A DNA stretch of 12,433 nt from Candidatus Poribacteria bacterium. Lineage in GTDB: Bacteria > Poribacteria > DTPJ01 > WJIO01. Numbering within the stretch: position 1 is the first letter of the stretch; each line of letters opens with the position of its first letter. The stretch covers positions 1 through 12,433 of the forward strand of contig WJIO01000189.1 of NCBI GenBank assembly GCA_014730235.1. The letters are read 5' to 3'. Below the pieces are notes generated by a model. The model was given only the letters and a program-made list of their open reading frames with translations, was not told where the DNA came from and ran no database searches. Positions 140 through 4,507 of the stretch are shown one piece after another. A program made the position numbers and the translations under genes.

Positions 140-311
140 AAAAGAAATACTAGCAAATGAAAATGCTATCAGGCTGTCATTCCTGCTTCAAGCTTTTTGA
201 AAAAGCTTGAAGCAGGAATGACATAGAACTATATTCTTTGAGCATTTTCATCTGTTTCTTCATGCTGAATCCTTATAAACATTGGTTTTAGAGATTTTTT
301 AGAATTCTCAG
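140..311 (-). repeat. Palindromic dispersed element, copy 1 (inverted relative to copy 3)
   Basis: Read on the minus strand, bases 311 down to 212 match 9511-9610 at 95 of 100 positions without a gap, counted by eye. The match runs from CTGAGAATTC into the central palindrome. Beyond the palindrome (about 175 down to 140) similarity to copy 3 continues but is much weaker, so the distal boundary is approximate. No open reading frame lies inside, so this looks like a non-autonomous, MITE-like element. Its identity as a transposable element is inferred from copy number and structure; I cannot see target-site duplications or a matching transposase. Confidence 0.75.
176..222. repeat. Perfect 23-bp inverted repeat, core of element copy 1
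   Basis: The left arm (176-198) and right arm (200-222) are perfectly complementary around the single base G199. The outer 11 bp, GTCATTCCTGC, are the same as in copies 2 and 3. The inner 12 bp are unique to this copy, so the palindrome core differs in length between copies. An outer pair, ATGAAAATGCT at 157-167 with its complement at 241-251, could extend the structure. There is no T-run directly after it, so it does not look like a normal intrinsic terminator. Confidence 0.9.
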
Positions 312-1141: not shown

Positions 1142-1170
1142 TTGATAAATGCATGGTAGTATGATATTAT
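1142..1170 (+). promoter_or_regulatory. Sigma-70-type promoter with extended -10 for the repeat-protein gene
   Basis: TTGATA at 1142-1147 and TATTAT at 1165-1170 are separated by exactly 17 bases. A TG at 1162-1163, one base before the -10 box, makes an extended -10. It lies between the LamG stop codon (1124) and the next start (1212), with room for a leader of about 35 bases. This suggests independent transcription of the 410-residue protein. It is a consensus match only. Confidence 0.6.
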
Positions 1171-1211
1171 TTAGTTTATAAGCAATTATCTGCAGGAAGG
1201 AGGACTTATAC

Positions 1212-2444
1212 ATGCCAGCTCCGACAAAAATATATTTTTCACAAATAGCCGTAGGTTGGGAAGACTGGGTACAGGTAGTCAATGTCAGTAACGAAACGGC
1301 TAATGTTATAGCCGTAGCAAGAAACGCTAACGGTCAAACAGTATGGTCTCAGGATGCAAGGCTTAGACCCTATCAAGCATGGACAGTATCCGCTGATACT
1401 GTTAACGTAGCCGCCACATTGGTCATATCAAGCGATAAACCAATAGTTGGAGAGCGACACTGCCATAGTAAAACAGAAGTGCTTAATTTCCCCGGTGCTT
1501 CGCCTGAAGGTATGACAGTGGGAAGGAGATTATTCTTTCCAGAGATATATACCGGCGGAAGCGACTGGTTTCAGATTATGAATGTAGGTGAACAACCCGC
1601 AAATATAAATGCAATTGTACGACATAAAAATGGACGTATTCATAGACAGTTTGGAAAACAGAAACTGCCCTCCCTGGGATGGTGGAATTTTACTGATAGA
1701 GAGATGGGGAATATAACAGGTACAATAGAATTAATGTGTACACAGCCATGCGTTGGTGAAAGGCATCTTCATTATACTAAAGGTCATCTGGGTTCCGCCG
1801 TCGGTCAATTAGGACAGGTTTTGGATAAACCTACTACCAGACTGTTTTTCCCGGAACTGTCAGAAGTATGGAATGATTGGGTGCAAATAGTCAACGTCAG
1901 CAACGAAAAAGCAAAAGTTAACGCAGTGGCCAGGGATCAAAGCGGAAAAACAGTATGGTCTCAGGAAGCCACTCTTAACCCATTCCATGCTTGGAATCCA
2001 AGTGTTGAAAGCATAAAGGGAAATACTTCAGTTACTGTTACCAGCGACAAACATATCGTAGGTGAACGTCATGACCATCGAGAGACTCAGGTGCTGAATT
2101 TCCCCGGTGCATCACTGGAGATGCGAACAGCAGGCAGAAGGTTATTTTTCCCGGAAACTTATGCCGGCGGTCTGGACTGGTTCAGGTTTATGAATGTCGG
2201 TGATGCTGGATGTAGGGTAAGTATAATCTCCCGGGATAGAGAAGGGAATGTAAAAAATCAGCTTAATAGTCCCAATATTCCATCTATGGGATATTGGATT
2301 GTAACAGACAAAGAAATCCGAAATGTAACCGGCACTCTGGAGGCTATGTGTACTCAACCTACAGTCGGTGAAAGACACCTACATTATGATGCAAACGTAC
2401 ACAAGGGAGTTGCTGTTGGTCAATTTGGGCAGGTTATTGATTAG
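1212..2444 (+). CDS. Four-module ABAB repeat protein with periodic GERHxH motif, function unknown
   Basis: I do not recognise a named family. The 410-residue product consists almost entirely of four beta-rich modules: A1 about 6-98, B1 about 105-204, A2 about 209-301, B2 about 309-410. Each has an early D-W-(V/F) segment followed by an N-V turn (DW at 18, 118, 222, 322) and a late V-G-E-R-H-x-H motif. The G of GERHxH falls at 80, 182, 284 and 386, exactly 102 residues apart. A1 resembles A2 most (19 of 27 residues identical at 21-47 versus 225-251, and both end LNFPGAS). B1 resembles B2 (VTDKE/FTDRE, MCTQP, GERHLHY, VGQxGQV). The layout recalls bacterial surface beta-sandwich repeats that end each unit in an SDxPIV-like strand. 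There is no signal peptide, yet the start is firm: GGAAGGAGG at 1195-1203, eight bases before ATG. The paired histidines might bind metal; that is inference. Confidence 0.85.
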   Translation: MPAPTKIYFSQIAVGWEDWVQVVNVSNETANVIAVARNANGQTVWSQDARLRPYQAWTVSADTVNVAATLVISSDKPIVGERHCHSKTEVLNFPGASPEGMTVGRRLFFPEIYTGGSDWFQIMNVGEQPANINAIVRHKNGRIHRQFGKQKLPSLGWWNFTDREMGNITGTIELMCTQPCVGERHLHYTKGHLGSAVGQLGQVLDKPTTRLFFPELSEVWNDWVQIVNVSNEKAKVNAVARDQSGKTVWSQEATLNPFHAWNPSVESIKGNTSVTVTSDKHIVGERHDHRETQVLNFPGASLEMRTAGRRLFFPETYAGGLDWFRFMNVGDAGCRVSIISRDREGNVKNQLNSPNIPSMGYWIVTDKEIRNVTGTLEAMCTQPTVGERHLHYDANVHKGVAVGQFGQVID

Positions 2445-2471: not shown

Positions 2472-2507
2472 AAGGGCACGCGTTAACGCGTGCCCTTCTG
2501 GCTTTTT
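2472..2507. terminator. Bidirectional intrinsic terminator between convergent genes
   Basis: Bases 2472-2497 form a perfect 13+13 palindrome whose GC-rich stem is GGGCACGCG. A T-run (2503-2507) follows on the plus strand after CTGGC. On the minus strand the stem is followed by a short A/T-rich tract (TATAGAAG) rather than a clean U-run, so the leftward direction is less certain. It lies 28 bases after the repeat-protein stop and 43 bases from the end of the convergent zinc-ribbon gene. Confidence 0.85.
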
Positions 2508-2539: not shown

Positions 2540-2755
2540 TTATAATTCCTGGTGACAAACAGGACATGCCTCACCAGAAGATGTAAGGCCTACAAACTTA
2601 TTTAACTCTCTCAGATCCATTTCCGCCTTGCAGTTCTTGTGCGGACAGCGGACAAAGTATTCGCCGCTTCCACGTGGTATTATCTTGTAGCTGGATTTTT
2701 TGGTTATATATTTTTTGGGTTCTCCACTGTTTGAATCTGATAATATTCTCGCCAT
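2540..2755 (-). CDS. Small zinc-ribbon-like protein
   Basis: The 71-residue product has a basic N-terminal half and two cysteine pairs typical of a zinc ribbon: C37-PHKN-C42 and C64-PV-C67, with H39 and H68 as possible extra ligands. Its substrate or partner is unknown. It could bind nucleic acid or act as a regulatory adaptor, but nothing in the sequence decides this. It lies 33 bases downstream of the matrixin/TPR gene on the same strand, so the two probably share a transcript. The start at 2755 is forced: an in-frame TAA lies two codons upstream and the next methionine is at residue 46. The Shine-Dalgarno is unusually far away (see the hairpin entry). The overlapping frame starting at 2792 sits at the end of the upstream gene and lacks the cysteine pattern, so I leave it out. 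Confidence 0.75.
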   Translation of the reverse strand: MARILSDSNSGEPKKYITKKSSYKIIPRGSGEYFVRCPHKNCKAEMDLRELNKFVGLTSSGEACPVCHQEL

Positions 2756-2788: not shown

Positions 2789-4507
2789 TCAATTTGAGGT
2801 TCCCTCGGTTTCCAAACCAAGTTCGTTGCTCTTTGTGTTAATTCTATGAGAACGCCGACGTTGCCTGATAAAATAAAGCATTAACATGCAAACGATCATG
2901 GAAATAAGAGTAAGCATAATAGCAGTCTTTGCCTTTTTTATCTGAGATCGTTTTTTTACCATATTCAAACCCATTAAAGCTTCCTGGGATTCTGGATCCA
3001 GTTCCAAAGTTCTTTGGAATTGAATTTTTGCATCATGGTATAAACCCTTTTCAAAAAATGCAAAACCAAGATTTCTGTTGGCGTTAACGTTATTGGTATC
3101 CATATTTAATACAGTCTTATAATAACTTATAGCCTCTTCTAACATGCCGTATTCATGTTTGTGTCTACCCAGACCAAAAGTGGCAGATTCCAGGTTTTTC
3201 CTGGCTTCCCAGAAATTGGGATCCCATTTTAATGCCTCTTCACACAAGTTTATACATTCTTCCCAATTTTCCTTTTTTATCTCTTCTGCCCCCAGATTAT
3301 TCAGGCAACTTGCTATATTTGACTTAGCAGCCTCAAATTCTGGATCAAGCTCCATAGATATTTTATACTGTTTTATTGCATCATTATATTGTCCCTTAGC
3401 ATCATAGGCCGTACCAATATCATAATTCAGCACCCGGGAGTCAGGGAATAAATCAAGAGCACTTTTCAGTATGACTATGGCTTTATCAAGTTCGTTATTA
3501 TCTATTAGTTCTGATGCCCATAAATGATAAGCTGCAAGGTTATTTATTCGTGCAACATGGAATTCTTTATCCATATCCAGGGCTTTACGAAAATATTCGA
3601 CAGCTTCATGGTATTTATCCTGTCTTAGATACAAAAGACCAATGGTGGTATAAAGCCCCGGAGAAGGTTCAAATGTAACTTCTCTTTCAAAATAATCTAT
3701 AGCCTTGTTATACATCCCCTCTTTCTGGAATATTCTACCAAGTCTATGGACAGCTTTTAACATATCTGGAGATATTTTCAAAACATCCATTAGTTCTTTT
3801 ACAGCTAATTCATCATCTCCTTTATCCGCATATACCATACCTAACCATAATCTTGAATGAATATTTCTTGGCTCTCTGGCTATATCTATCTTGAGCTGTT
3901 TTATAGCCGTATCATGATATGGTGAATTAACAGTTGATGACAAAAGCCTAATCAGTGTGTTTTTGTCCCTTCGGGTTGGGTTGAGAGCTTTGGATTTAGG
4001 ATACATTATATCATTGGGATCTAAACTATGGCCCCACAGACCAATAGAATGACCTATTTCATGAAGTAAAACAACTCTCATTTCCTTATGCAAAGAACTT
4101 CGCAGAGAAGGTTTTCCCTGTAAAAGTATATATATTTCCACATAAAAACCACCGGATTCAGATTCAACCAGACCCGCTTCTCCCAGAGGATCAGTGCTCA
4201 TATATGTTAGCTGATCAGTCCAGTATACTCTTATATCAGATTCTTCTGATTCCATTTTAACAAATTCCAGAAATCCTTCAGAACACCCCGCCCATTGCTC
4301 CAGTGCATATTCTACATCACCGATATAGGCATGTTTCATCCTTTCGGGTACAGGAGGAGAAGCTATGTATACAGAAATGGTTTTTTGGGGAAAGCGTTTA
4401 ATTCTTCCATCCGAGGCCATGGTAATCCTGTGGAAGTAATCGTTTCCATAACTTACAGAGCAATAAAGTGAAAATATAATTAATATAAAGAATAAAATTT
4501 TTTTCAT
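2789..4507 (-). CDS. Matrixin-type zinc metalloprotease with TPR array and C-terminal membrane anchor
   Basis: The 572-residue product begins with a signal peptide (about 1-21). A compact metzincin protease domain follows (about 40-190) with the zinc motif HEIGHSIGLWGH at 149-160 (H149, E150 catalytic, H153, H160) and a Met-turn at M168 (DIMYP). The third histidine is one residue later than in the classical HExxHxxGxxH. The LWGHS form is a variant I recall from bacterial matrixin-like proteins, so activity is plausible. About eight TPR units fill residues 197-515, for example D-x-A-I-x-Y-(F/Y) cores ending in DPE or DPN. A single hydrophobic segment at about 528-547 is followed by RQRRRSHR, which would leave a short cytoplasmic tail and put the protease and TPRs outside the cytoplasmic membrane. 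GAGGAC at 4519-4514 gives a sound ribosome site. Substrate unknown; TPRs may recruit partners. Confidence 0.88.
   Translation of the reverse strand: MKKILFFILIIFSLYCSVSYGNDYFHRITMASDGRIKRFPQKTISVYIASPPVPERMKHAYIGDVEYALEQWAGCSEGFLEFVKMESEESDIRVYWTDQLTYMSTDPLGEAGLVESESGGFYVEIYILLQGKPSLRSSLHKEMRVVLLHEIGHSIGLWGHSLDPNDIMYPKSKALNPTRRDKNTLIRLLSSTVNSPYHDTAIKQLKIDIAREPRNIHSRLWLGMVYADKGDDELAVKELMDVLKISPDMLKAVHRLGRIFQKEGMYNKAIDYFEREVTFEPSPGLYTTIGLLYLRQDKYHEAVEYFRKALDMDKEFHVARINNLAAYHLWASELIDNNELDKAIVILKSALDLFPDSRVLNYDIGTAYDAKGQYNDAIKQYKISMELDPEFEAAKSNIASCLNNLGAEEIKKENWEECINLCEEALKWDPNFWEARKNLESATFGLGRHKHEYGMLEEAISYYKTVLNMDTNNVNANRNLGFAFFEKGLYHDAKIQFQRTLELDPESQEALMGLNMVKKRSQIKKAKTAIMLTLISMIVCMLMLYFIRQRRRSHRINTKSNELGLETEGTSN

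Follow-up and report, generated by a model that had tools for sequence, protein, structure and literature searches.

A Putative Divergent Relative of the ASRAH Superfamily in Poribacteria, Built of Two or Four Beta-Sandwich Modules with a GERHxH Motif

In Poribacteria, we have found a family of proteins made of two or four tandem modules and characterized by a GERHxH motif, which we treat as a divergent relative of the ASRAH superfamily, new within or beside it and distinct from the ASRT family proper. The window analyzed here is a whole contig of 12,433 bases from a Poribacteria genome of 5.53 Mb, and it encodes a four-module member of this family. On balance, we consider it probable that this protein is a cytoplasmic single-chain pseudo-tetramer of ASRAH-type modules which binds a small metabolite. 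The ASRAH superfamily, described in 2009 by De Souza, Iyer and Aravind, consists of beta-sandwiches with a cleft that probably binds sugars, a role deduced from context, and is found as cytoplasmic solo homotetramers, secreted dyads and secreted tetrads fused to an amidase; the solo proteins are intracellular and have been proposed to be sugar sensors (PMC2739507). The superfamily is thus already known, the novel parts being the family, its GERHxH motif and the lineage-wise grouping of the tetrad halves.

A Leaderless Protein of Four Alternating Modules

The 410-residue open reading frame confirms the regularity pointed out in the earlier note made from the sequence alone: GERHxH begins at residues 80, 182, 284 and 386, with a period of exactly 102 residues, this exact spacing being peculiar to the window protein (the period in its relatives is ~101–108). 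The proposed ABAB order holds as well, modules A1 and A2 being 51.0% and B1 and B2 54.8% identical while A–B pairs share 23.5–28.9%, and, in a tree of 42 modules, a single branch separates all the A modules from the rest (SH-aLRT 100). Preservation of the glutamate and of both histidines extends to the family: the E-R-H residues are invariant in each of the four modules of all 39 four-module relatives, and the last histidine is kept in 39, 39, 33 and 38 of these 39 sequences in modules 1 to 4, respectively. The reported absence of a signal peptide is equally borne out, the frame above the ATG being open for only 10 codons without a start codon; an in-frame stop immediately precedes the methionine in several relatives, and a leader, sought in all the relatives read, was found in none of them. 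Regarding expression signals (Table 1), the ribosome site is indeed a strong Shine-Dalgarno-like stretch. The extended -10 promoter stands in part: the TG-bearing element is present, but the promoter scan overall gave 4 sites versus 3.5 in shuffles, i.e., no excess.

Table 1. Features of the window and of two loci in relatives (positions refer to the window unless a locus is named).
Feature	Position	Strand	Remarks
Palindromic, MITE-like repeat	150..270		24-nt perfect arms 175–198/200–223; outer inverted arms 154–167/241–254
Promoter-like element	1142..1170	+	TTGATA-17-TATTAT, TG ahead of the -10; a match to the consensus, which does not by itself indicate function
Strong Shine-Dalgarno-like stretch	1196..1204	+	GGAAGGAGG, upstream of the ATG at 1212; read from sequence
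Four-module (ABAB) ASRT-like protein	1212..2444	+	410 aa, ATG start, no signal peptide; from ORF, repeat, relatives and fold match
Module A1, residues 1–100	1212..1511	+	GERHCH at residues 80–85; strands from predicted models
Module B1, residues 101–204	1512..1823	+	GERHLH at residues 182–187; match to 1nc7 chain D, Z 12.7
Module A2, residues 205–304	1824..2123	+	GERHDH at residues 284–289; module comparison
Module B2, residues 305–410	2124..2441	+	GERHLH at residues 386–391; module comparison
Strong terminator-like hairpin	2472..2497	+	AAGGGCACGCGTTAACGCGTGCCCTT, 3' of the tetrad gene; found by sequence scan
Small protein, probably a zinc ribbon	2540..2755	-	71 aa, CxxxxC and CxxC pairs, no clear family
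Matrixin-TPR fusion protein	2789..4507	-	Matrixin-type metallopeptidase domain (HEIGHSIGLWGHS), TPR repeats and C-terminal hydrophobic segment
AhpD-like gene with in-frame TGA	L050 7577–8146		Also at L012, L014, L015, L017, L022, L024–L027, L029–L032, L055, L058 and L060
Apparent AhpD-like remnant	L019 2720–2912		Frame end only, between tetrad and dehydrogenase genes

Searched with an AB-pair profile, the family is present in 76 of 84 Poribacteria genomes, and no clear member was found among 302 genomes of other phyla, in which the sole match was weak and partial (E 3.7e-4) and lay in a large protein; the genome concerned also encodes a DUF5719-type protein. A pattern scan over 84,980 species, which picks up close relatives only, returned two loci, both in Poribacteria. 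Tetrads of ~408–417 residues (39 sequences) and dyads of 203–211 residues (6 sequences) both occur in this phylum, with several copies of the family in one genome (G001). No Pfam, NCBIfam or PHROG model matched the family, PADLOC and PDB sequence searches gave nothing credible, and searches of plasmids, phages and viral contigs returned nothing. A canonical ASRT domain is found in 65 of the 84 Poribacteria genomes, at the C-terminus of a ~240–260-residue protein (L067–L076, L082–L096) whose N-terminal part is an extra region of no recognized kind; it is absent from the window's own genome, and the eight Poribacteria genomes without the GERHxH family also lack it.

Fold and Place in the ASRAH Superfamily

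Modeled by AlphaFold2 from a six-row alignment with moderate confidence (pLDDT 74), the AB pair superimposes on TM1070 (1nc7 chain D) with Z 12.7 and an rmsd of 2.0 Å over 100 of 117 residues, and on four ASRT entries with Z 9.8–10.0, the next unrelated entry standing at Z 7.3. Foldseek retrieved 1nc7 with probability 1.00 from two separate predicted models, and, even with the full-length model as query, it assigned single modules to TM1070 (1nc7) and ASRT; that model derives from a three-row alignment and is too weak (pLDDT 58.6) to judge module packing. Bicupin-like matches (HutD, KduI; Z 6–7) were set aside as the usual background for unmatched models. At the profile level, the search with single modules that had been suggested as a check led to the free-standing ASRTs: in hhalign, a profile of 159 modules aligned with a template of four free-standing ASRTs at 87.5% (E 3.6e-6, score 37.0) over 84 collinear columns, the IV-x-(Q/E) strand included, while 200 column-shuffled controls did not exceed 22.1 and reversed sequences gave 9.2. 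Against the Poribacteria ASRTs alone, hhalign gave no signal, which we ascribe to the shallowness of this template (Neff 1.7). With hmmsearch, the module profile reached 1.5e-6 for secreted ASRAH-type proteins of another phylum and at best 0.009 for free-standing ASRTs, and in this small set both outrank nearly all unrelated ORFs.

ASRAH proteins are further recognized by their topology, with strands 2, 5, 7 and 8 in one sheet and the ligand cleft along strand 2, by an asparagine ending strand 2, which is a nearly absolute hallmark, and by a tryptophan at the start of strand 1, which is well conserved though not absolute (PMC2739507). In the poribacterial family, the predicted models show an eight-stranded sandwich of TM1070/ASRT topology, the strand-2 asparagine (N24, N124, N228 and N328) is kept in all four modules of 39/39 tetrads, and the tetrads and dyads correspond to arrangements described for ASRAH. 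The strand-1 tryptophan is replaced by leucine or isoleucine followed by an invariant tyrosine or phenylalanine (Y8, F9). PF07100 (ASRT) matches neither the window protein, nor its genome, nor three aligned relatives, and the strand-2 ligand signature SHEshChhN is absent, its place being held by WxDWVQVVN in A modules and DWFQIMN or DWFRFMN in B modules. It is because the asparagine is kept and the tryptophan is not, and because PF07100 and SHExxC both failed, that we speak of a divergent relative. PF18986 (DUF5719), considered as a parent family, gave no match, the genome itself holding only a weak one on another contig. The earlier view that no described family has this motif hence gives way to the ASRAH (ASRT) superfamily, matched by fold and profile (PMC2739507), although the GERHxH family itself is new.

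With the ASRT family (PF07100; Anabaena sensory rhodopsin transducer, 2II7; Thermotoga TM1070, 1NC7), the GERHxH family has in common the beta-sandwich fold, as judged from the predicted model (Z 12.7 and ~10), the asparagine after strand 2 and the nature of a leaderless, probably cytoplasmic protein. In contrast, ASRT assembles one module into a homotetramer whereas the poribacterial tetrads carry four modules per chain, and the SHExxC and VQHxRLD segments of ASRT stand against DWxxxxN and GERHxH. Compared by description only, the amidase-fused tetrads of Chloroflexi (Roseiflexus and relatives) likewise contain four ASRAH modules per chain, but they are secreted and bear an N-acetylmuramoyl-L-alanine amidase which the poribacterial family does not have (PMC2739507). 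The secreted dyads of actinobacteria also have two modules in tandem but, unlike the poribacterial family, they carry a lipoprotein signal and are extended at both the N- and the C-terminus (PMC2739507); DUF5719 (PF18986) may correspond to these same proteins. Large proteins of a genome from another phylum (G239; L062, L064, L066 and L099) end in several ASRAH/DUF5719-like modules and bridge, in sequence, the secreted ASRAH families and the GERHxH family.

History of the Dyads and Tetrads

The earlier note had proposed a two-step history, with divergence of A and B modules followed by duplication of the pair. The order of these events stands: since a single branch sets the A modules apart among the 42 sampled, the A/B split is older than the pair duplication. 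What does not stand is a pair duplication that occurred once and was inherited undisturbed by all tetrads. Indeed, in a tree of AB halves, the N and C halves of the tetrads group lineage by lineage with dyads branching alongside, the label N requires 4 changes, and forcing all N halves into one group lowers the log-likelihood by 144 and is rejected (p-AU 9e-73). Either three or more separate fusions would have turned AB into ABAB, or concerted evolution would have homogenized the two halves again and again. The 50–55% identity between the halves of the window protein argues against a recent homogenization. It seems that tetrads arose from dyads by doubling on several occasions.

Genomic Context

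A short-chain dehydrogenase gene follows the tetrad gene on the same strand in 31 genomes, all from poribacterial family f3, the two genes being separated by 3 bases at one locus (L003). At 17 loci, an AhpD-like, peroxidase-related gene lies between them, with an in-frame TGA (UGA) at the second cysteine of its CxYC motif in 17/17 cases and a frame that stays open and conserved past the TGA; its product is thus likely a selenoprotein, as far as can be read from the gene. The apparent remnant listed in Table 1 suggests that the AhpD-like gene has been lost in some genomes. A pterin dehydratase gene is usually found upstream of the f3 tetrad gene, in divergent orientation. At the loci read from other poribacterial families, the window's own among them, the dehydrogenase gene does not accompany the tetrad gene, nor does it in the genome of the window. 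The operon-like context in f3 fits a cytoplasmic metabolic role.

In the window, the neighbors of the tetrad gene encode a LamG protein, the small cysteine-rich protein, the matrixin-TPR protein and house-keeping functions, and no synteny with them is conserved at the relatives' loci fetched, except for one FGE-sulfatase-type match near L010. The palindromic element at the beginning of the window has ~40 copies in the genome, many of them 93–99% identical.

Proposed Function

The location of this protein had been considered a puzzle. It is none, because free-standing ASRTs are cytoplasmic and the relatives' operons contain a cytoplasmic-type dehydrogenase. The beta-sandwich half of the earlier idea of surface beta-sandwiches agrees with the predicted fold, whereas a cytoplasmic reading is preferred to a surface one. 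That the protein would be exported without a leader or displayed at the surface, as an adhesin or polysaccharide binder resembling the secreted ASRAH proteins, is very improbable: of the three ASRAH families described, two are secreted (PMC2739507), and the adjoining LamG protein opens with a signal-peptide-like stretch, but all the relatives read are leaderless, the LamG gene is absent at every relative's locus fetched, and the f3 cluster points to the cytoplasm.

The gene product would hence be a soluble cytoplasmic protein of four ASRAH-type beta-sandwich modules. Free-standing ASRTs are homotetramers in which the subunit interface partly walls the ligand cleft; in Poribacteria, two diverged modules, A and B, would have been joined in a dyad, and two such dyads in an ABAB tetrad, which yields a single-chain pseudo-tetramer whose packing we infer. 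Each module would possess a cleft on the sheet of strands 2, 5, 7 and 8. GERHxH is predicted to form strand 7, in the same sheet as strand 2, whose ASRT counterpart (SHExxC) touches the ligand, and it takes the place of the conserved IVVQHxRLDxRQ segment of ASRT. Since the glutamate and the two histidines alternate along the predicted strand, they are expected on one face, with the arginine on the opposite one. A repeated functional site in the modules is plausible, one ligand site per module being the simplest reading. The most likely function would be the binding of a small polar metabolite, i.e., a sugar or a sugar-like compound, a metal being possible, with a putative modulation of a partner enzyme for which the short-chain dehydrogenase of the f3 operon is the obvious candidate.

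The conservation of the motif may be read otherwise. GERHxH strands might be structural and join neighboring modules at the pseudo-tetramer interface without any ligand, as might be envisaged from the TM1070 cleft, to whose walls the dimer interface contributes (PMC2739507), and from a motif equally kept in all four modules while other positions diverge. We regard this as rather unlikely, since an invariant glutamate, arginine and two histidines point to a site more than to an interface; moreover, the counterpart strand of ASRT is also highly conserved, with a different sequence (VVQHxRLDxRQ). Alternatively, each module might be a metal site, the E-x-H-x-H of strand 7 coordinating Zn, Fe or Cu by itself or together with an adjacent module, so that the protein would store metal or carry out metal-dependent redox chemistry. 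The invariance of E-R-H in 39/39 sequences, with a second histidine nearly so, and the predicted shared face of the three side chains favor this proposal, and the f3 operon, with its conserved-UGA AhpD-like gene and its dehydrogenase, is compatible with redox work. Nevertheless, PMC2739507 describes no solved ASRT-family relative as a metal protein, an arginine sits within the motif, and the second histidine is glutamine or arginine in 6/39 copies of module 3, so that a metal site seems to us unlikely. The present data accommodate a sugar-like metabolite, a metal and an interface role for GERHxH alike.

A bolder and less probable proposal can be put forward tentatively: the family might be a phylum-specific fourth branch of ASRAH, in which a dyad sensor was made into a single-chain pseudo-tetramer several times independently. 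Each module would have a novel E-x-H-x-H site for a ligand or a metal, and the protein would sense metabolites or redox state in the cytoplasm on behalf of an operon containing a dehydrogenase and a selenoprotein.

Outlook

ASRT-type proteins have been proposed to be free-standing sensors of small molecules which act through contact with enzymes, and even with a light sensor. The present family adds to them a nearly phylum-wide group in which every module has a strikingly conserved polar motif and whose tree agrees with repeated fusion of dyads into tetrads. The tetrad offers a tractable single-chain protein for studying the ligand of the cleft and the need for four modules.
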